From positions 496,001 through 560,000 of the forward strand of contig NZ_OCMS01000001.1 in assembly GCF_900215325.1 (NCBI RefSeq): DNA of 64,000 bases. Reading direction: 5' to 3'. The position numbers were made by a program, and so were the translations under genes. Every line of letters starts with the position of its first letter. Within the stretch, counting starts at the first letter, position 1. Source of the DNA: Fibrobacter sp. UWB16 (GTDB taxonomy: Bacteria; Fibrobacterota; Fibrobacteria; Fibrobacterales; Fibrobacteraceae). This document shows, piece after piece, positions 34,680 through 44,484 of this stretch. A model generated the notes under the pieces. It worked only from the letters and a program-made list of their open reading frames with translations. It was not told the DNA's origin and ran no database searches.

Positions 34680-36536
34680 ATGCCGAAACTTCGTTCGCTC
34701 AAGACTATGGAAGGCCGTGAAATGGCCGGTGCACGTGCCCTTTGGCACGCAACAGGAACCAAGGTAGAAGACTTTGGTAAGCCCGTCATTTGCGTGGTGA
34801 ACAGCTACACCCAGTTTGTACCGGGTCATGTCCACCTCAAGGATGTCGGCCAGGTTGTCGCACGCGCGATCGAAGCTGCCGGCGGTGTCGCCAAGGAAAT
34901 GAACACCATCGCCGTGGACGACGGTATCGCCATGGGCCACGACGGCATGCTCTACAGCTTGCCCTCCCGCGACCTCATTGCAGACGCTACCGAATACATG
35001 GCTAACGCCCACCGCGCAGACGCCCTCGTTTGCATTTCTAACTGCGACAAGGTGACTCCGGGTATGCTCATGGCTGCAATGCGCCTCAACATTCCGGCAA
35101 TCTTCGTTTCCGGTGGTCCAATGGAAGCTGGTCACGTCACGACGAAGGACGGCAAGGACCGCGCTCTCGACTTGATCGACGCCATGATCGATTCTGCAGA
35201 CAACACCATCAGCGATGAAGAAGTTGCCGACATCGAAGCCAACGCTTGCCCGACTTGCGGTTCCTGCTCCGGCATGTTCACCGCAAACTCCATGAACTCC
35301 CTTACCGAAGCCCTCGGCCTTAGCCTCCCGGGCAACGGCACCATCGTTGCAACGCACGCCGAACGCAAGAAGCTCTTCGAAGCCGCCGGTAAGCGCATCG
35401 TGGAACTCTGCCACCAGTATTACGATTTGAACGACGAAAGCATCCTCCCGCGCAGCATCGCCACGAAGGACGCCTTCGAAAACGCCATGCGCCTCGATAT
35501 CGCCATGGGTGGTTCTTCTAACACCGTTCTCCACTTGCTCGCCGTCGCTCAGGAAGCTGGCGTGGACTTCACCATGAAGGACATCGACCGTCTCTCCCGC
35601 AACACGCCGTGCATCTGCAAGGTCGCTCCGACCGTCCACAACATCCACGTCGAAAACGTGAACCGTGCAGGCGGCATCATGGGCATCATCGGTGAACTCG
35701 ACCGCATGGGCCTCATCCACAAGAGCGCAAAGACCGTTCACGCCGCTACGATGGGCGACGCTCTCGAAGCAAACGACCTCAAGCGTAATCCGACTGCCGA
35801 AGCCAAGCAGCGCTATCTCGCAGGTCCGGGCCGCAAGTACAACATCGAAGCCTTCTCTCAGAACTTCATGTACCCGGATCACGACCTCGACCGCGCAAAC
35901 GGCGCTATCCGCGATGGCGAACACGCTTACACCAAGGACGGCGGCCTCGCTGTTCTTTACGGTAACCTCGCTATCGACGGCTGCATCGTGAAGACCGCAG
36001 GCGTTGACGAATCCATCTGGAAGTTCACTGGCCCGGCAATCGTGTTCGAAAGCCAGGAAGAAGCTGTGAACGGCATTCTCGGCAACAAGGTGAAGGCAGG
36101 CGACGTCGTCGTCATCCGTTACGAAGGCCCGAAGGGTGGTCCTGGCATGCAGGAAATGCTCTACCCGACCTCTTACCTCAAGAGCCGTCACCTCGGCAAG
36201 TCTTGCGCCCTCCTCACCGACGGTCGCTTCTCCGGTGGTACAAGCGGTCTCTCCATTGGCCACGCCTCTCCGGAAGCAGCCAACAAGGGTAACATCGGCC
36301 TCGTGCACACGGGTGACGTCATCGAAATCGATATCCCGAACCGCACCATCAACGTGGAACTCACCGACGAAGAACTCGCCGCACGCCGTCAGGAAATGGA
36401 ATCCCGTGGCGCCAAGGCATGGAAGCCGGAAAACCGCGACCGCGTCGTGTCCAAGGCACTCCAGGCATACGCTGCTATGGCCTCCTCTGCAGACAAGGGT
36501 GCCGTGCGCGACCTGTCTCTGATTGGCATTAAGTAA
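34680..36536 (+). CDS. ilvD: dihydroxy-acid dehydratase
   Basis: A 618-residue iron-sulfur dehydratase that converts 2,3-dihydroxy-3-methyl acids to 2-oxo acids in valine, isoleucine and pantothenate synthesis. Motifs: '[20 protein letters not shown]', '[18 protein letters not shown]', '[20 protein letters not shown]', and the C-terminal '[20 protein letters not shown]'. The cysteines are as in the standard enzyme and length is normal. AAAAAGGA lies six bases before ATG 34680; a palindromic operator candidate overlaps a -10 box upstream. No other ilv genes are adjacent. Its last 37 codons are repeated twice downstream in 230-bp units (36651 and 36881), each copy with only silent changes. Confidence 0.96.
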
Positions 36537-36650
36537 GCCATGCGTTAATGTTCATTCTGTGAGCTAGAGTCGCCGATATTAATCGGCGATGGAAGCGAGA
36601 GGCGGCGAGGTATCGCAATGTATATTGCAGTCGAGCCGCCGGTCGTCACA
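36421..36650 (+). repeat. ilvD-tail tandem unit 1 (contains the true ilvD 3' end)
   Basis: Unit of exactly 230 bp: the last 37 codons of ilvD and its stop, then about 114 bp of non-coding spacer. The spacer holds TCGCCGAT-ATTA-ATCGGCGA (perfect 8-bp hairpin), then GGCGGC...GCAAT-GTAT-ATTGC...GCCGCC (second hairpin), enclosed by CTGTGA...TCACAG, which could close a three-way junction. Confidence 0.9.
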
Positions 36651-36880
36651 GGAAGCCGGAAAATCGCGACCGTGTTGTTTCCAAGGCTCTGCAGGCATAC
36701 GCAGCAATGGCCTCCAGCGCAGACAAGGGTGCCGTGCGCGACCTGTCTCTGATTGGCATTAAGTAAGCCATGCGTTAATGTTCTTTCAGTGAGCTGGAGT
36801 CGCCGATATTAATCGGCGATGGAAGCGAGAGGCGGCGAGGTATCGCAATGTATATTGCAGTCGAGCCGCCGGTCGTCACA
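36651..36880 (+). repeat. ilvD-tail tandem unit 2
   Basis: 230 bp. The coding part differs from unit 1 in nine codons, all silent (for example TCT to AGC, GTC to GTT). The spacer differs from unit 1 at only three positions. It has no start codon or ribosome site for the ilvD fragment, so it is not expressed as a protein on its own. Confidence 0.9.
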
Positions 36881-37061
36881 GGAAGCCGGAAAACCGCGAC
36901 CGCGTTGTGTCCAAGGCTCTCCAGGCATACGCTGCTATGGCATCAAGTGCAGATAAAGGTGCTGTCAGAGACCTGTCTCTGATTGGCATTAAGTAAGCCA
37001 TGCGTTAATGTTCATTCTGTGAGCTGGAGTCGCCGATATTAATCGGCGATGGAAGCGAGAG
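36881..37061 (+). repeat. ilvD-tail tandem unit 3 (truncated spacer)
   Basis: The coding part differs from unit 1 in ten codons and from unit 2 in fourteen, all silent (for example CGC to AGA, GCC to GCA). The spacer matches through the first hairpin and GGAAGCGAGAG, then diverges; the second hairpin is missing. The array is followed by a terminator at 37085. Confidence 0.9.
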
Positions 37062-37084
37062 ATTCGCGCACTCATCAATCTTTG

Positions 37085-37130: not shown

Positions 37131-38138
37131 TTATGTGTGAATTCTTACGACAATGGAGTTTTCAAAGAAACTCGGGTCCGCACCCAAGCGCCACAACTTA
37201 GAGCCATACGCAAACAAACTCGGGCGCGCTTTGCGCAAAATTGCAGCTCCCGTTGCCCGCAAATATCCGGCCTTGCTTTTGGATTGCATTCCCTTGAGTT
37301 TTGCGCCTAAATCATCAATGCTTACGCTAATAGCATTGTGATCGTGCGGGTTGTACGGTTCAGCCTGCACCTTGGTCGAGAGCGCTTCAAAAAACTCCTG
37401 ACTTTTGGTGCCAACAGCAACATCATCAAAGATGCGAAACGCTGTCGCCGTCTTTACAACCGATTCGAACTTTTCAATTCCCGCAATCCAGGGATGGTTC
37501 GCGGCCCCCACAAGCCCAATCGTAAAATCAAACGATTCTGCTTCACGGAAATAGCGGATGAACATTTCTTCCGGAGATTCCTTTTCGGGATTCGGCTTGA
37601 GAACATCTTTTGCAGCTTCTAAGAGAATCGCAGAAACATCCGTTTCTCCAGTTGCAATCGGAGCATTCGCCTTGTAAACTTGTTCAAACCCACTGTCGCC
37701 TCGGAAACCGCCATAGACATACGCAAACAGAGCCTCAGCTGCCACAGGCTTTATCAGGTGCAACACAAGCGGCAAGAAATTCGCAAACACGGTCGCACGG
37801 CGGCGCAAAAGTTCCGCGACCAGCAAGCCATCACGTTCATCGACGGCAAGCAACAACGCCCCCACATGCAGCAAGAACGAATACTGCCCGACATCCAAAT
37901 TTTTAACATCGCAGGGCAAATAGACATTGATTGTCGCTTGCAAAACCTTCGGCAAGAACTTGTACCAAGAAGGCGTGAAATAAGCACTCCCGTCAACGCA
38001 CTGCATCTGCGAAAGTTCCTCATCATTTGCTGATGCGCCATCAACAAAATCAAGAATTCCGGTCGAGCTTCGCGAGAACCCGTAAACCGTTATGTCCCGG
38101 GACGTTTCAATCTTCACGTAAAACATTTCGTTTGCCAT
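37131..38138 (-). CDS. protein with probable C-terminal HIRAN-like domain, function unknown
   Basis: A 335-residue soluble protein. Residues 1-230 are not recognised. Residues about 235-330 resemble a HIRAN domain: 'VQAEPYNPHDHNAISVSIDD' followed by 'GYLRATGAAILRKA', which fits the 'EP.NP.D.NAI.V...G.lGYlp' pattern. HIRAN domains bind single-stranded or 3' DNA ends and occur alone or fused to helicases and nucleases; here no nuclease or helicase motif is seen. AGGAG lies seven bases before ATG 38138. It is the first gene of a block of poorly conserved genes right after the ilvD-tail array. Confidence 0.65.
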   Translation of the reverse strand: MANEMFYVKIETSRDITVYGFSRSSTGILDFVDGASANDEELSQMQCVDGSAYFTPSWYKFLPKVLQATINVYLPCDVKNLDVGQYSFLLHVGALLLAVDERDGLLVAELLRRRATVFANFLPLVLHLIKPVAAEALFAYVYGGFRGDSGFEQVYKANAPIATGETDVSAILLEAAKDVLKPNPEKESPEEMFIRYFREAESFDFTIGLVGAANHPWIAGIEKFESVVKTATAFRIFDDVAVGTKSQEFFEALSTKVQAEPYNPHDHNAISVSIDDLGAKLKGMQSKSKAGYLRATGAAILRKARPSLFAYGSKLWRLGADPSFFENSIVVRIHT

Positions 38139-38349
38139 TGCAGGTCTCCTTTCTGAAGGTTACAATGTAAACTTAGATTTTAACAGTGTCATATAATGAC
38201 ATTTTATAATTTTGCAAAAAAAATTTCCACTGGTTAACAGAACAAATCCATATTTCTTCGAATAGTCAACAATTTATCTTACCATATTTTTTCATTATCG
38301 CTTTTTATATATTTTTGACATTATTTGAACAGAATTACACTCATTTTCA

Positions 38350-39258
38350 ATGAACATCTACTACCACCTCCCCGGCCTATTTGAATTTTATGACTTGTAC
38401 AAGGCGTTTCTGCCGCTGTTCCGCGAGCACCGGGAATATTTTTACGACTGGTGCGAAATCGGATCCATTTACGGAGCGCCGAGCGACTGCATTTGGGGCG
38501 GAGGTCGCGTAGGCTTTGGGGATGCAGAGCCGCGGAAAGTCGCGGAGCTTATGCGCGAATACGGGATTTCGGCAAGGCTCACTTTCAGCAATTCATTGAT
38601 TCGCGAAGAACACCTCGCCGACACTCGATGCAATAAGTTGTGCAAATTATTTGAAAGCAACGGTGCTAGCGAGATGCGCGCGGTTCAAAACGGCATCATC
38701 GTCCATTCCGATTTGTTGCTGAATTACATCAAATCAAAATATCCCAGCTTTTATTTCGTTTCCTCAACCACAAAAGTTATCACAAATTTCGAGCAATTCA
38801 AAGCGGAACTGGACCGCGAAGAATTCCGCTATGTCGTTCCCGATTTCAGGCTCAACAAGCAATTCGACAAACTGAATACGCTCACAAACGAGCAAAAGCA
38901 AAAGGTCGAATTTCTTTGCAATGAATGTTGTTGGTTCGGTTGCTACGACCGCAAAAAATGCTACGAGAATGTGAGCCAGAAAAGCCTCGGCGAAAGCAGC
39001 GAAGACCACATCTGCGTCTCGCCCACAGCCCAAAGAGGCTACCGCTTTTCCGATGCGATGAAAAATCCCGGTTTCATCGGAATCGAGGACATTCAAAACA
39101 TCTACGCCCCTGCGGGATTTTGCCACTTTAAAATCGAAGGTCGCAGCCTCGGCAGCGCCCTCATTCTGGAATTTTTGCTTTACTACATGACCAAGCCCGA
39201 GCATCAGCTTAAAGTCCGCGAAGAAATTTACCTGGACAGCACGCTAGATTTGTTTTAA
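38350..39258 (+). CDS. conserved protein of unknown function, Cys-rich centre
   Basis: A 302-residue soluble protein. Blocks such as 'YDWCEIGSIYGAPSDCIWGG', 'ISARLTFSNSLIREEHL', 'YPSFYFVSSTTKVITN', 'CNECCWFGCYDRKKCYENVS' and 'GFCHFKIEGRSLGSALILEF' recall a family of uncharacterised proteins I associate with gut Firmicutes, sometimes near polysaccharide genes. The final block is like the 'FKIEGR' segment of peptidase-U32-type barrels, so a related TIM-barrel fold is possible. The Cys cluster in the middle could bind metal or a cluster. No activity can be assigned. There is no Shine-Dalgarno; the upstream 210 bp is AT-rich without other features. Confidence 0.7.
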   Translation: MNIYYHLPGLFEFYDLYKAFLPLFREHREYFYDWCEIGSIYGAPSDCIWGGGRVGFGDAEPRKVAELMREYGISARLTFSNSLIREEHLADTRCNKLCKLFESNGASEMRAVQNGIIVHSDLLLNYIKSKYPSFYFVSSTTKVITNFEQFKAELDREEFRYVVPDFRLNKQFDKLNTLTNEQKQKVEFLCNECCWFGCYDRKKCYENVSQKSLGESSEDHICVSPTAQRGYRFSDAMKNPGFIGIEDIQNIYAPAGFCHFKIEGRSLGSALILEFLLYYMTKPEHQLKVREEIYLDSTLDLF

Positions 39259-39287
39259 ACAGACAACTAATGTAATGGAATTAATAT

Positions 39288-40196
39288 ATGGAACCGACAG
39301 ACGCATTATTCATGACTATTGTAAAAATTGTACTGATTACCATTTTTGCAATAATTCCTTTACTATTAGGCATTTTCGCCAACATTTCGACCAAGCATCC
39401 CAGGGCAATGTTCATTGCAGGGAAAACCATATCAATTCTACTCACAATTTTCACTGTCATCTCACTTTCGATATCCGTAATATACGCAATCAACGAGCAG
39501 GATTCTACACAGCGACCCTATATTTTTGCATGGTGTATTTGCTGGCTACTCATAGCTATTTTTCCTTTATCAACATTTGACCTCACCACAAGCCAAAAAA
39601 CAAAAAAGCAAAAGACCTGTTATCTCACCATTTCATTTATTACGTTTTTCCTAATTCTGTCAGGATCTGAATTTCTATACAATCGAGCGTTTGGATACGT
39701 TTTTCAAACGGAACGGTTTGAACTATCCATAAACGATTTTTACTCGAACCATCCTGAAGCCGATAAAAATAGCGACATCAATATATTCGCATCTATACAA
39801 AACGGAGAAGATGAGTTCACAGCGAATATATCCGTATATAAAGATTCTATAACTCTAAAAGCAACAGAACTCAGTTATATAAGCAGTGAAATTATAAGCA
39901 GCGAAAAATCGCAAAAAGATTCTTGTTATCGCAACGACTTGCCGCGTGACTTAGTTCAAGACATTATTGAAGAAATCACCTATTATCAACCGGAAATTGA
40001 ATACACCTGGGTAGGAGACCTATGTTTCCATCCATTCGCATTTGTTGAACTTGCCAATAACAAAAACGCAACAACGATAATATTGAAACTTCCAGACATT
40101 GATGAATATCATCCCAACGCCCAGCGTTTAGCAAAAAAATTCGCGAGTCTTGTAAATGATTCTAAAATTGACCCTACAAAAGGTTGCTCCAATTAA
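39288..40196 (+). CDS. membrane protein with C-terminal soluble domain, function unknown
   Basis: A 302-residue protein with four probable transmembrane helices in the first 135 residues ('IVLITIFAIIPLLLGIFANI', 'TISILLTIFTVISLSISVIY', 'FAWCICWLLIAIFPL', 'LTISFITFFLILSG'). An extracytoplasmic or cytoplasmic domain of about 165 residues with four Cys follows. No homologue is recognised. Base composition is clearly more AT-rich than in the housekeeping genes, with many ATA and AAA codons, which suggests acquisition by transfer. It starts 29 bp after the previous gene. Confidence 0.65.
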   Translation: MEPTDALFMTIVKIVLITIFAIIPLLLGIFANISTKHPRAMFIAGKTISILLTIFTVISLSISVIYAINEQDSTQRPYIFAWCICWLLIAIFPLSTFDLTTSQKTKKQKTCYLTISFITFFLILSGSEFLYNRAFGYVFQTERFELSINDFYSNHPEADKNSDINIFASIQNGEDEFTANISVYKDSITLKATELSYISSEIISSEKSQKDSCYRNDLPRDLVQDIIEEITYYQPEIEYTWVGDLCFHPFAFVELANNKNATTIILKLPDIDEYHPNAQRLAKKFASLVNDSKIDPTKGCSN

Positions 40197-40214
40197 TTTC
40201 AAACATCAAAAAAA

Positions 40215-41072
40215 ATGAAGAAAACTTTAATGACCATCCTGATTATCATCGGCGCCATCATTTTGCTATTGGCGATTTGGTTCAACATTCCCTATTCGCC
40301 CGTCAAGACGCAGTTTCGCAATGATGTAGAAGCGATGTTGAAAAGTTCCGCAGCAATCTCCGGAACGCTAGATTCCGCAAGTATCGCAAGCCTCCCACCC
40401 CTCATTCAAAAATATCTAGAAACGTGCGGCTACATCGGTAGCGAAAGACGCACGCACTTGACCATGGAATACAAAGATGTCGATTTCGGCATGGGCGTAA
40501 ACAAGCCGCGAATCAAAATCGACTACACGCATGTTGACTTCGCCGATTCTCCGAACAGGCTCGCATTTATCGACAGCAAAATGTTCGGCATTCCATTCCA
40601 AGGCTACGATTATTACATGAACGGCAAAGGCGGCATGAAGGGCGTCCTTGCGAAGCTCGTTACGCTATTCGACCAGACCGGCCCCGCAATGGACAAGGCC
40701 TGCCTCATCACCTATCTCGCCGAAGCATTCTTTTTGCCAGAAGCACTCCTGAAAGATTTCATCACATTCAAGCAAATTGACGAGCACACCGTTGAAGCTA
40801 CGATTACAAACAAAGGCGTAACAGCTACCGGTATTTTCCACTTCAATGACGCTTACGAAATGACCTCGTTTACAACAAATGACCGCGGTCAAATTTCACC
40901 CGACGGAACCATCGAATATACCCCGTGGGAAGCGCAATGCGAAAACTACAAAACCTATTCCGATGGCATCAAACGCCCCACCGTTTTCCGCGCCGTATGG
41001 AAAAATAAAGACAGCGACTTTGTCTATTTCGATGGAGAGATTAGCAAAGTGAATGGAGCAGAGGTAAAGTAG
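40215..41072 (+). CDS. DUF6544/DUF6920-like membrane-anchored protein
   Basis: A 285-residue protein with one N-terminal transmembrane helix ('LMTILIIIGAIILLLAIWF') and an extracytoplasmic domain. 'LPPLIQKYLETCGYIGSERR' and 'FGIPFQGYDYYMNGKGGMKG' followed by 'YLAEAFFLPEALL' resemble a widespread family of unknown function with the pattern LP..v.rYL...G and E....P.all. No catalytic role is known to me. It is 18 bp after the previous gene and probably in the same operon. Confidence 0.65.
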   Translation: MKKTLMTILIIIGAIILLLAIWFNIPYSPVKTQFRNDVEAMLKSSAAISGTLDSASIASLPPLIQKYLETCGYIGSERRTHLTMEYKDVDFGMGVNKPRIKIDYTHVDFADSPNRLAFIDSKMFGIPFQGYDYYMNGKGGMKGVLAKLVTLFDQTGPAMDKACLITYLAEAFFLPEALLKDFITFKQIDEHTVEATITNKGVTATGIFHFNDAYEMTSFTTNDRGQISPDGTIEYTPWEAQCENYKTYSDGIKRPTVFRAVWKNKDSDFVYFDGEISKVNGAEVK

Positions 41073-41172
41073 AAACTCGGCAGAACCGGGCAAAAAAACG
41101 CCTTACAATAAAAACCACCCAATACTTTGTTATATTAACAGCATCTGTAGACAACAGAGCAAAAGGTACTTT

Positions 41173-41871
41173 ATGAGCGAAGAAAACAATACTTCCGGTT
41201 GCAATGCTGAAGACGTTAAAGCCATCACGAAGAGATGCGCAGAATCCTGGATGAAACGAATCCGAAATTTTGCAGGTTTCTTAGGGATGATTCTCCCGTG
41301 GATTGCTCTTGTCGGTGCCGCTATCGTAGCCAAAGCACAGCCCGCCAAAATCCCCAATGATTTTTGGGCAACGCTCTCCATCTCGGCCACATACTACTTG
41401 ACACCTGCACTAGCCGGCATTTTAACGACGGCAGCAGTCGTTTTGATTTGCTACAAAGGCTACGACTGGCGCGATGAACTTGTTGCAACCGTCTCAGGCA
41501 TATTCGGCTTGATGATTGTCATTTTTCCTTGCGATTGCTCCGTTGCGGATAGCAAGATTGTTGGATTTTTCCAGTTGCCTATAGCCGTTTCTAACGTCAT
41601 CCACTTAACATCGGCTGTCATATTCTTTATACTTTTGGCCATCAACAGCCTATTCCTTTTCACACTTGGCGAAAGCGATACCAAGCAAAAAAGAATCCGC
41701 AACATCATTTACAAAGTCTGCGGCATTGGCATGTTCTGCACGTTGTTCCTGCTAGTTTTGCCATTTGAATTTCCAGCAAAGATTTTCGTCGTCGAAGCGA
41801 TTGCGCTCACGTTCTTCGGCGTAAGCTGGCTCGTGAAAGGTCAAATTTTCGGTCTGTTCAAAGACAAATAA
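41173..41871 (+). CDS. polytopic membrane protein, function unknown
   Basis: A 232-residue protein with about six transmembrane segments ('FLGMILPWIALVGAAIVA', 'LTPALAGILTTAAVVLICY', 'VSGIFGLMIVIFPCDC', 'LTSAVIFFILLAINSLFLF', 'IGMFCTLFLLVLPF', 'IFVVEAIALTFFGVSWLV'). The first 30 residues are soluble and charged. A 'FPCDCS' motif sits at a membrane boundary. The topology is reminiscent of DUF998-like proteins, but I am not confident. AAAGGT precedes ATG. It ends 3 bp from the stop of the convergent gene. Confidence 0.65.
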   Translation: MSEENNTSGCNAEDVKAITKRCAESWMKRIRNFAGFLGMILPWIALVGAAIVAKAQPAKIPNDFWATLSISATYYLTPALAGILTTAAVVLICYKGYDWRDELVATVSGIFGLMIVIFPCDCSVADSKIVGFFQLPIAVSNVIHLTSAVIFFILLAINSLFLFTLGESDTKQKRIRNIIYKVCGIGMFCTLFLLVLPFEFPAKIFVVEAIALTFFGVSWLVKGQIFGLFKDK

Positions 41872-41874
41872 GAG

Positions 41875-42426
41875 CTAGAACGCAAAAGCCAAAGCTGCTC
41901 CGCCCTGAGGGGTCGGAGCAATTTTTATTTGCAGGCTAGTATCGTAACCAATACTCTTGTTATAAATTTCAACAGCCGAAGTTGTATAGCTTCCAGAAAT
42001 TCCACCAAGTACGATTGCGACAAGAGCAACAACCCCACCACCAATCGTAAGCGGTTTTCCCATACTTTCATCAGCAATCCAAGAAGAAATTCCCCAACCT
42101 AAAGCAGCGCCACCAACAACAGAAAGAATCAAGGCTTTCGAATAAAGACTCTTCCCCGCTCGCAATTCCGCTGCAGCATCAGGATTTGTACATACAATCC
42201 ATTCCAATTCGCTTTCACTCAATTGTCGGCTCCCAGCATACCAATGGCCTGATTCCCTTTCAATTTTTACTTTCGCGGGTACAGAGTATATGGGTTCTTC
42301 TACAGTACGGACTGGTTCTTCCTTTACAACAGGCGTAGAACTTTTAGACGGGTACTGTTCCCAGACACTTTGAGCAAAAGACATGTTGGTAAGCACAAGC
42401 AATACAGTAAAAAGAAACAATCGCAT
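41875..42426 (-). CDS. exported membrane-associated protein, function unknown
   Basis: A 183-residue protein with signal peptide 'MRLFLFTVLLVLTNMSFAQ'; a Pro/Val/Glu-rich stretch; a short domain ('HWYAGSRQLSESELEWIVCT'); then two hydrophobic helices with glycine patterns ('ALILSVVGGAALGWGISSWI', 'IGGGVVALVAIVLGGISG'). It starts 3 bp after the priA stop on the same strand, so it is almost certainly co-transcribed with priA, although no functional link is evident. Confidence 0.65.
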   Translation of the reverse strand: MRLFLFTVLLVLTNMSFAQSVWEQYPSKSSTPVVKEEPVRTVEEPIYSVPAKVKIERESGHWYAGSRQLSESELEWIVCTNPDAAAELRAGKSLYSKALILSVVGGAALGWGISSWIADESMGKPLTIGGGVVALVAIVLGGISGSYTTSAVEIYNKSIGYDTSLQIKIAPTPQGGAALAFAF

Positions 42427-42429
42427 AAT

Positions 42430-44484
42430 TTATTCCAATTCTACTTTAATTTCTACGCCTGCAACCCATGCCTTAGGCGCATTCAAAATCGGAGCAAGCA
42501 CCTTGCGCACAGCCGCAAGGTTTTGCGTTTTAATGTAGAGTTTTACCCAGAATACATTTTGCACTTTCGGCACAAACGCATCGACAGGTCCAAGCACTGT
42601 CATCGAAGATTCCTTGCGCAAAATACCTTCAAGGCGGTTCACCGTGTCGCGAAGCAAATTTTCATCACGCGAGCCACAACTGATTTCAACGAGTTTGCAG
42701 AACGGCGGATAAAAAGCCATTTGGCGGTTCGAAGATTCCGTCTCGGCAAAGCCATCAAAATCATGGCGAATGGCATACTGCATCACAGGCTCTGTCGGAT
42801 TGAGCGTCTGGATAAACACGCGGCCACCGCCACCTGCACGCCCCGCACGTCCCGCCGTCTGGCTCAACAGCTGATACAAGCGTTCCGTTGAACGGAAATC
42901 AGGAATACCTAGACCCGAATCAGCACCGACAATTCCCACAAGCTTCACGCCAGGGAAATCGTGACCTTTCGCGACCATCTGCGTTCCAAGCAAAATATTG
43001 TATTCCCGATTCCTGAACGATGTCAAGATTTTTTCGACAGCGCCCACGTTCTGCGTTGTATCGCGATCCATGCGGATTACTTTCGCATCGGCCACCCATT
43101 CGTGAATTTCTTCTTCGAGCTTTTCAATCGCGCCTCCGACAAATTCATACGTTTCAGCACCGCATGTCGGGCACGGCGTATCGACCGGATAAAGCGCAGC
43201 ACAGTAATGGCACATCAGCGCATTGTACTGTTTATGATAAACTAGCGGAATATGACAATGCTTGCAGTAAAGCGTTTCACCACATTTAGTACAAACTCTA
43301 ATCTTAGAGTAACCGCGACGATTCATGAGGATAATCGCTTGGTCACCACCTGCAATGCAATCTGAAAGCGCTTCGCGCAATGCAGGAGACATGAGCACGC
43401 CTTTTTGCTGGCGCACCTTGCCCATATCAATCACTTTCACTTCAGGGAGTGGAGCCGCAGTCGCTCGATTTTTGAGCGTCAACAGTTTGAGGTTCCCCGC
43501 CTTTGCATTGCGGAATGTTTCAAGGCAAGGCGTTGCAGAGCCAAGCACTACAAGTGCTCCGTACTTTTGCGCCAAGTGGAAAGCCAAGTCACGCGTATGG
43601 TAACGCGGAGCCGGATCCTGTTGTTTAAACGAAGAATCATGCTCTTCGTCCAAAATAACAACATCAAAATCAAACGGCGAAAGAATGGCGCTGCGCGTCC
43701 CAAGCACCACTTTTGCAGAGCCATCTAGCACAGCCAAATAACCCGCACGTTTTTGCGGAGCCGAGAGCGCCGAATGCAATACAACAACAGGCACCTTCAA
43801 ATAATCTTCAAAACGCGATGCCGTCTGCGGAGTAAGCCCAATTTCTGGCACGAGAATGAGTACACGCTTATTGCGCTTAAGCGCTTCGCGCACCAATTCC
43901 TGATAAACTCTCGTTTTGCCACTGCCGGTCACACCATGCAGGAGCGTTCCACGAAAACCATTCTTATCCAAATCTTCAACAAGACTGGCAAGTGCAGTCT
44001 CTTGTTCGCCTGTCAAGGGGGGCAGGTCCGAACAAACCTCCATTTCGGGTCCATTTGATAGAGCCTCGCCCCGAGGTTCAGATTTTTCGGCCAGCAAGGC
44101 ATCGAGAAACTTGTCAAAATCAGCAGGCCAAAAGACATTCAGAGTGCGCATGGGCGAACTTATATAATACTTAGACACCCACTCCAGCGATTCCATATAA
44201 CGTTCAGAAAACACATACCCCGACTCATGCGGACACGCATACCGGACATCGAACGACGGTTTATCGCTATGGACACGGCTCACCAAGGCAAGCGTAGGCT
44301 TACGGCGGGCAAGCTGCACCCAAACGACACTCCCCCGCTGAATATCCGCTCCTTCCGGCACCCCGTAAGTAAAAACCGATGGGGACAATGGGATGTAAAC
44401 CTCGCAAAAACGCGACAGAAGCGCCGAATTACAGCGTTCCTTGACCATCTCCGGAGCAGACGTTTTGGGAATTCTTTTTGCCAC
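42430..44484 (-). CDS. priA: primosomal helicase PriA
   Basis: A 684-residue 3'-5' helicase that restarts stalled replication forks. Walker A is 'LLHGVTGSGKTRVY', motif II 'DEEHDSS', and motif VI 'SQTAGRAGRAGGGG'. Eight zinc-binding cysteines fall in 'VCTKCGETLYCKHCHIPL' and 'CHYCAALYPVDTPCPTCG'. The start is a GTG at 44484, preceded four bases upstream by TATCTTTG, an exact match to TAnnTTTG; no ATG or Shine-Dalgarno is available nearby, so this looks like a leaderless GTG start. Downstream, the 41875 gene follows after 3 bp. Confidence 0.95.
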   Translation of the reverse strand: MAKRIPKTSAPEMVKERCNSALLSRFCEVYIPLSPSVFTYGVPEGADIQRGSVVWVQLARRKPTLALVSRVHSDKPSFDVRYACPHESGYVFSERYMESLEWVSKYYISSPMRTLNVFWPADFDKFLDALLAEKSEPRGEALSNGPEMEVCSDLPPLTGEQETALASLVEDLDKNGFRGTLLHGVTGSGKTRVYQELVREALKRNKRVLILVPEIGLTPQTASRFEDYLKVPVVVLHSALSAPQKRAGYLAVLDGSAKVVLGTRSAILSPFDFDVVILDEEHDSSFKQQDPAPRYHTRDLAFHLAQKYGALVVLGSATPCLETFRNAKAGNLKLLTLKNRATAAPLPEVKVIDMGKVRQQKGVLMSPALREALSDCIAGGDQAIILMNRRGYSKIRVCTKCGETLYCKHCHIPLVYHKQYNALMCHYCAALYPVDTPCPTCGAETYEFVGGAIEKLEEEIHEWVADAKVIRMDRDTTQNVGAVEKILTSFRNREYNILLGTQMVAKGHDFPGVKLVGIVGADSGLGIPDFRSTERLYQLLSQTAGRAGRAGGGGRVFIQTLNPTEPVMQYAIRHDFDGFAETESSNRQMAFYPPFCKLVEISCGSRDENLLRDTVNRLEGILRKESSMTVLGPVDAFVPKVQNVFWVKLYIKTQNLAAVRKVLAPILNAPKAWVAGVEIKVELE

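Follow-up and report, generated by a model that had tools for sequence, protein, structure and literature searches.

Six genes stand between an array of repeated ilvD ends and priA in a 64 000-nucleotide stretch of Fibrobacter sp. UWB16 (contig NZ_OCMS01000001.1, positions 496 001–560 000; this whole stretch is called the window and its genome G000), and the locus raises the question whether they were brought in together by an element that used the 3′ end of ilvD or are at home beside priA. A preliminary description, made from the letters of the window alone, had counted six such genes and proposed an accessory island; an open reading frame (ORF) check found all six at or near the coordinates claimed (Table 1). 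Genes are named here by their start position, except the first, which had been described as HIRAN-like and is called HIR. The reading favoured, at a rough probability of 0.55, combines a resident block, a rearrangement at its left edge and HIR as a putative DNA-end-binding accessory of RecBCD (exonuclease V).

Gene order between gmk and priA in relatives

The surroundings of the 38350 gene, which encodes a weakly U32-like protein, were read at 32 loci (31 from relatives and the window's own) out of 48 genomes with a match. The order HIR, U32-like, (AT-rich 39288), (DUF6544), (others), priA recurred in G046, G001, G050, G004, G014, G019 and G027, with gains and losses of single genes between HIR and priA across these relatives. 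In the near relative G052, gmk was located 52 bp before the 38350 gene with no HIR between, and in more distant Fibrobacter the 38350 gene had other surroundings. HIR adjoined gmk in 12 of the 12 other members of the HIR clade found at gmk/priA. In relatives the block and ilvD each occurred without the other, and the block together with gmk and priA was common to relatives having ilvD elsewhere. By gene order, the block is shown to be the resident gmk-to-priA interval of one Fibrobacter clade, with genes exchanged singly, and not an inserted island.

Joint arrival of the six genes as cargo of an element integrating at the ilvD 3′ end is considered hardly credible. The array beside the block does repeat the ilvD tail, relatives too carry extra tail copies after ilvD, and the composition of the 39288 gene is odd; against these points stand the synteny described above, a right border formed by syntenic priA with no second tail copy, the lack of a recombinase among the six genes (profile search of their proteins) and the differing histories and distributions of the genes. 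An empty site in relatives, a recombinase and att on both sides, by which an integrative element would be recognized, were not found for the block, and, provided that the assembly is right, synteny refutes the cargo proposal. What survives of the accessory character is the patchy distribution of HIR, the 39288 gene and others and the recent import of the 39288 gene. Conservation of all the genes in all Fibrobacter with normal composition, which the preliminary description had named as the finding that would overturn its proposal, was not observed for the whole block; only the 38350 gene is core (28/29 high-quality genomes).

The ilvD-tail array and the rearrangement junction

The array was recovered beside the block as described, with units of the 230-bp type starting at 36421, 36651 and, shortened, 36881; the third is cut at ~37061, where it passes into the gmk–HIR spacer of relatives with a microhomology of only ~3 nt (ungapped reading). 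A whole-genome search placed the array at a single site and found no second copy, so that the further ilvD-tail core suspected outside the window did not appear. The ilvD flank was compared in seven relatives (G014, G050, G046, G004, G001, G052 and G006), in 7/7 of which ilvD is followed by the same segment, X. In G000, segment X is located on contig C2 and is joined to gmk at C2:391073–391086 (gmk at C2:391089–391649). Among the genomes compared, ilvD stands in the gmk–priA stretch only in G000; in G014 and G050 ilvD and HIR are on one contig with ~46–48 kb between them. Since ilvD and the array are joined to HIR and X is joined to gmk, a rearrangement cutting between gmk and HIR is indicated, and the array marks the breakpoint because only G000 has ilvD at HIR. 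On these comparisons, the boundary between the ilvD array and HIR is shown to be a rearrangement junction private to G000 among the genomes compared.

If the ilvD–HIR join were false, made by assembly in the repeat array, only the genome order would be wrong. This is judged improbable: the join does sit at the end of a 230-bp repeat and the contigs of G050 break inside ilvD, but the partner junction of X and gmk on C2 exists as well, outside any repeat, the gmk–HIR spacers of relatives contain no ilvD-tail unit, and N runs are absent from both junctions.

The array looks like a small unit re-inserting at the ilvD 3′ end. Additional ilvD tails after ilvD were also present in G006, G050, G052, G046, G038 and G058, and no large insert was found after ilvD in the seven relatives with a fetched flank. 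The tail copies in 36421–37061 differ synonymously among themselves, the outermost copy contains a palindrome (TCAGAGAC CT GTCTCTGA) absent from the G014 tail, and two hairpins lie in the non-coding part of each unit. The spacer of the own genome was dropped as a dispersed repeat, its two matches in the genome both lying inside the array, and a search for known RNA in the spacer gave only sub-threshold Rfam matches. A second synteny break was seen in the window at ~12438, beyond which the G046 sequence that had matched runs on into the gmk segment of C2.

Exchange of the AT-rich gene at 39288

The 39288 gene had been called clearly more AT-rich than its neighbours, and with 36.4% guanine plus cytosine (GC) it is the most AT-rich among the window's 48 long ORFs (z −3.2). 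GC in the five remaining genes of the block stays within 1.4 standard deviations; GC at third codon positions was low in the 41875 gene too (z −2.7). The 39288 gene was found in 15/61 genomes of the genus and 9/29 high-quality ones (G037 marginal). At the DNA level it is 98% identical to the copies of G014 and G050, in which the neighbours are less alike (U32-like 86–88%, HIR 84–85%, DUF6544 89–91%). G001 carries a 76% allele inside the block and a third copy at another locus, 97.5% identical and aligned over exactly 39287–40197. Because the gene is ~98% identical while flanking block genes are 84–91% identical, it is, as far as sequence comparison can tell, a recent import by single-gene exchange of a membrane-protein cassette.

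The G001 copy outside the block (L352:6413–7321, contig C71) adjoins a short-chain-dehydrogenase-like gene (named by eye), and identity extends to the two ends of the ORF and no further. Two distant Fibrobacter, G055 and G024 (L270, L271), have a 40% relative of this gene in the space from an rlmL-like gene to ilvD, so that the wandering family has reached the neighbourhood of ilvD as well.

A predicted HIRAN fold in HIR

The naming of HIR as HIRAN-like held for the fold and failed at the curated cut-off of Pfam. In an AlphaFold model (predicted local distance difference test, pLDDT, 87.7), whose middle part is helical, HIR residues 199–335 were aligned by VIA-align to five HLTF HIRAN entries over 88–91 residues (Z 4.1–5.2, root mean square deviation 2.7–3.4) and to lp_0118 (Z 5.9), unrelated rows starting at Z 2.9 or less. 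At E ≤ 0.5 the Pfam model PF08797 matched 18/23 HIR family members, the best of them at 0.0019; a motif of the NPHDxNA[IV] type was present in 40/42 HIR sequences. On the structural likeness, the sub-cut-off Pfam matches and the motif, the C-terminal part of HIR is predicted with moderate confidence to have a HIRAN fold, the Z values being middling.

HIRAN domains are DNA-end readers in fork-remodelling helicases. With the HLTF/Rad5 domain (PF08797) HIR shares the aligned segment and an NP-x-D-x-NA motif (for HLTF, according to an excerpt of PMC8262856); it differs in lacking an attached helicase, in having ~200 extra N-terminal residues and in reading NAI or NAV, whereas the duplex-binding HLTF reads NAF in the same excerpt. 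Bacterial HipL and HipN proteins, also described in that excerpt, have a C-terminal HIRAN domain in which the Phe is mostly missing, and HIR resembles them as a bacterial protein with such a domain without Phe; unlike them, the window's HIR has no HipA kinase or HipS domain in profile searches, and its family has recCBD, gmk or CRISPR arrays as recurring neighbours.

Genomic surroundings of HIR

HIR was found in 42/167 genomes of the phylum, all of one family and 36 of them in the genus; surroundings were read for 43 loci from 41 of the 42 genomes, and G017, where HIR is split at contig ends, was read from tables only. In 11 genomes (G030, G058, G120, G060, G124, G126, G022, G128, G129, G049 and G132) the next gene after HIR, on the same strand and separated from it by −70 to 144 bp, is recC; matches to RecC, RecB and RecD cover most of the length of the three genes after HIR, at scores below the curated ones. 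A 139-aa HIR remnant was located 9 bp before recC in G026, two genes (G054) or 4.4 kb (G021) separate HIR from recC, and G017 has the 59 C-terminal residues of HIR beside recC at the edge of a contig. HIR or a remnant was present in 14/15 genomes with the closest recC type versus 22/62 others (Fisher 6e-5, a value that ignores relatedness). HIR adjoins gmk in 12 loci, and the remaining loci are elsewhere. A CRISPR array was present a few hundred bases before HIR in 3/43 loci (G034, G054, G013) versus 0/40 control loci; the arrays at L093, L094 and L305 have at least 28, 10 and 11 repeats, and L093 has type II cas1 and cas2.

In a tree of 42 HIR rows (midpoint root), the 13 gmk/priA rows formed one group (99/92) within the recC-linked part, next to recC-linked G049/G132 (91/96). 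Because this clade is nested among recC-linked rows, linkage to recC is the most likely ancestral state of the window's HIR, with a later move to gmk in its clade. The recC label changed ~4 times on the tree, at least 3 of the changes falling on well-supported branches; G124, which is recC-linked, lies far from the main HIR group, and the deepest rows are not recC-linked. HIR may have arrived at recC several times independently. Three HIR rows from a different genus of this family (g6: G141, G142, G143) fall among those of Fibrobacter, a hint of transfer or of taxonomy trouble.

Other genes of the block

Table 1. Features of the ilvD–priA region, in window coordinates
Feature	Position	Strand	Description
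ilvD-tail array	36421–37061	+	230-bp units, two complete and one truncated; forms the left side of the breakpoint
Junction	37053–37062		Array sequence turns into the gmk–HIR spacer of relatives
HIR gene	37131–38138	−	N-terminal part and C-terminal HIRAN-like domain (~residues 199–335), motif NPHDHNAI
38350 gene	38350–39258	+	Cys-rich, KIEGR-motif protein, weakly U32-like; core in Fibrobacter
39288 gene	39288–40196	+	AT-rich, membrane protein; single-gene cassette by sequence comparison, two diverged alleles in the genus
40215 gene	40215–41072	+	DUF6544/DUF6920 protein, N-terminal anchor (PF20181 E 5.6e-64; PF21900 E 1.6e-62)
41173 gene	41173–41871	+	Membrane protein, ~six hydrophobic segments; no family match
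41875 gene	41875–42426	−	Secreted or membrane protein; no family match; variable presence
priA	42430–44484	−	Right border of block, syntenic in relatives; TIGR00595 536 bits (cut-off 230)

The neighbours of the block, ilvD on the left and priA on the right, both score above curated family cut-offs, and DUF6544/DUF6920 is the sole firm family among the six genes. Four proteins had been taken as membrane or membrane-anchored, in agreement with hydropathy, which found four hydrophobic segments in 39288, the segments of 41173 listed in Table 1, one N-terminal anchor in 40215 and two to three segments in 41875. The 41173 family was present at 8/32 U32-like loci, and the 41875 family at 4/32 of these and at 5/43 HIR loci. 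Phage origin of the block was dropped, as HIR had no match in phages and HIR, 38350 and 39288 none in viral contigs. A defence system among the six genes was dropped as well: a scan of these six proteins, for two of whose families (HIR and 38350) the preliminary description had suggested defence-island statistics, gave no match to PADLOC defence models at E ≤ 0.001.

The 38350 gene was present in 48/61 genomes of the genus, the core count given above being that for the high-quality genomes (the match in G016 covers 36 residues only). Its closest named records among the matches listed were Fibrobacter (83–90%). A scan of GTDB genomes gave at least 571 relatives; in the best 80, which were used (28 Fibrobacterota, 52 Bacillota), 16 Bacillota proteins were 75–81% identical to the window's protein, versus ilvD in 10 such Bacillota genomes with only 37–55% identity in matched pieces. 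In a tree of the 80 most similar rows, whose bootstrap was not settled, 27 Fibrobacter rows grouped with the window (96/86), and this group sits among Clostridia on a short branch. The difference in identity between this protein and ilvD suggests an old cross-phylum transfer, the gene having been gained from or shared with rumen Clostridia. One row (L199), although titled Fibrobacter, falls with Lachnospiraceae, perhaps through a binning error. The protein also occurs in plasmid records, two of them from eligens (71%) and the other match from Treponema saccharophilum (59%), under the title 'hypothetical protein'. In Bacillota the gene had no conserved neighbours: over 52 loci the largest cluster of neighbours comprised 5, apart from one of 6 that overlaps the 38350 gene itself on the opposite strand.

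The 38350 protein resembles the Peptidase U32 family (PF01136) in an FKIEGR motif with a Cys cluster before it, but scores 16.1 bits against a cut-off of 22.4 (E 0.0071); PF01136 matched 4/21 members of the 38350 family at E ≤ 0.5, and hhalign of the family to the U32 protein of the own genome gave a probability of 4.8. Assignment as a clear U32 enzyme was thus not reached, and the structure model was poor (pLDDT 42.6). Because of invariant Cys residues, the protein is probably a metal- or Fe-S-binding enzyme unrelated to HIR. Around residues 100–115 it has a linker of very variable length, the rest being ~80% identical.

Possible role of HIR

HIR lies directly before recC in the 11 genomes listed; its action on RecBCD, as a DNA-end-binding accessory, is proposed because of the predicted HIRAN fold together with the recCBD neighbourhood. 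The role at DNA ends or in genome conflict that had been considered for HIR gains indirect support, because the gene precedes recCBD in many relatives. In the window's lineage, as gene order shows, the rearrangement separated HIR from gmk and attached it to the ilvD-tail array at the end of the latter. The C-terminal HIRAN domain would bind a DNA end. With NAI/NAV in place of NAF in the motif, this end is probably a single-stranded 3′ one. End-bound HIR would help or regulate RecBCD in loading on, or degrading, broken or invading DNA; in the window's own genome it would act on RecBCD in trans. RecBCD is not known to contain an additional HIRAN subunit or regulator, and HIR matched no RecB, RecC or RecD model in profile searches. 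No link between HIRAN and RecBCD was found in titles or abstract starts among the matches listed (word-start matching, many matches being author names), and a whole-word search found no paper with both HIRAN and recC.

Several observations weigh against an accessory of RecBCD. PF08797 scored the window's HIR at 12.9 bits against a cut-off of 24.7 (E 0.1), and Foldseek found no match of the HIR model at E ≤ 0.001 in PDB or viral libraries. In the window's genome recC is on C4 with HIR not near, and HIR is away from recC in 21/36 genomes of the genus with HIR. It is missing from 17/29 high-quality genomes while recC was present in 40/40, and therefore RecBCD does not need HIR. The link to recC could also be inherited without function: HIR would then stand before recC by inherited linkage only and be an orphan HIRAN protein in fork repair or gene regulation with no tie to RecBCD. 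This explanation is possible but doubtful; most HIR copies do lie elsewhere, including beside gmk and CRISPR arrays, but deeply separated lineages of HIR, that of G124 among them, have the recC arrangement, and no fewer than three changes of the recC label are needed on the tree.

The favoured reading, a DNA-end-binding accessory of RecBCD, can be extended tentatively, to a model that is itself rather unlikely: the RecBCD of Fibrobacteraceae would have an optional predicted HIRAN component that captures single-stranded 3′ ends, steers loading or degradation, perhaps feeds CRISPR adaptation, and is able to leave the operon and act in trans. CRISPR adaptation is brought in because arrays lie before HIR in three genomes; an excerpt of PMC5518543 ties RecBCD to CRISPR adaptation in E. 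coli.

The breakpoint is a warning against taking genes next to a duplicated gene tail for cargo as a matter of course. If a bacterial HIRAN protein that stands alone is indeed tied to recCBD, this would be a new form of control over the enzyme on which the choice between repairing and destroying DNA ends depends.

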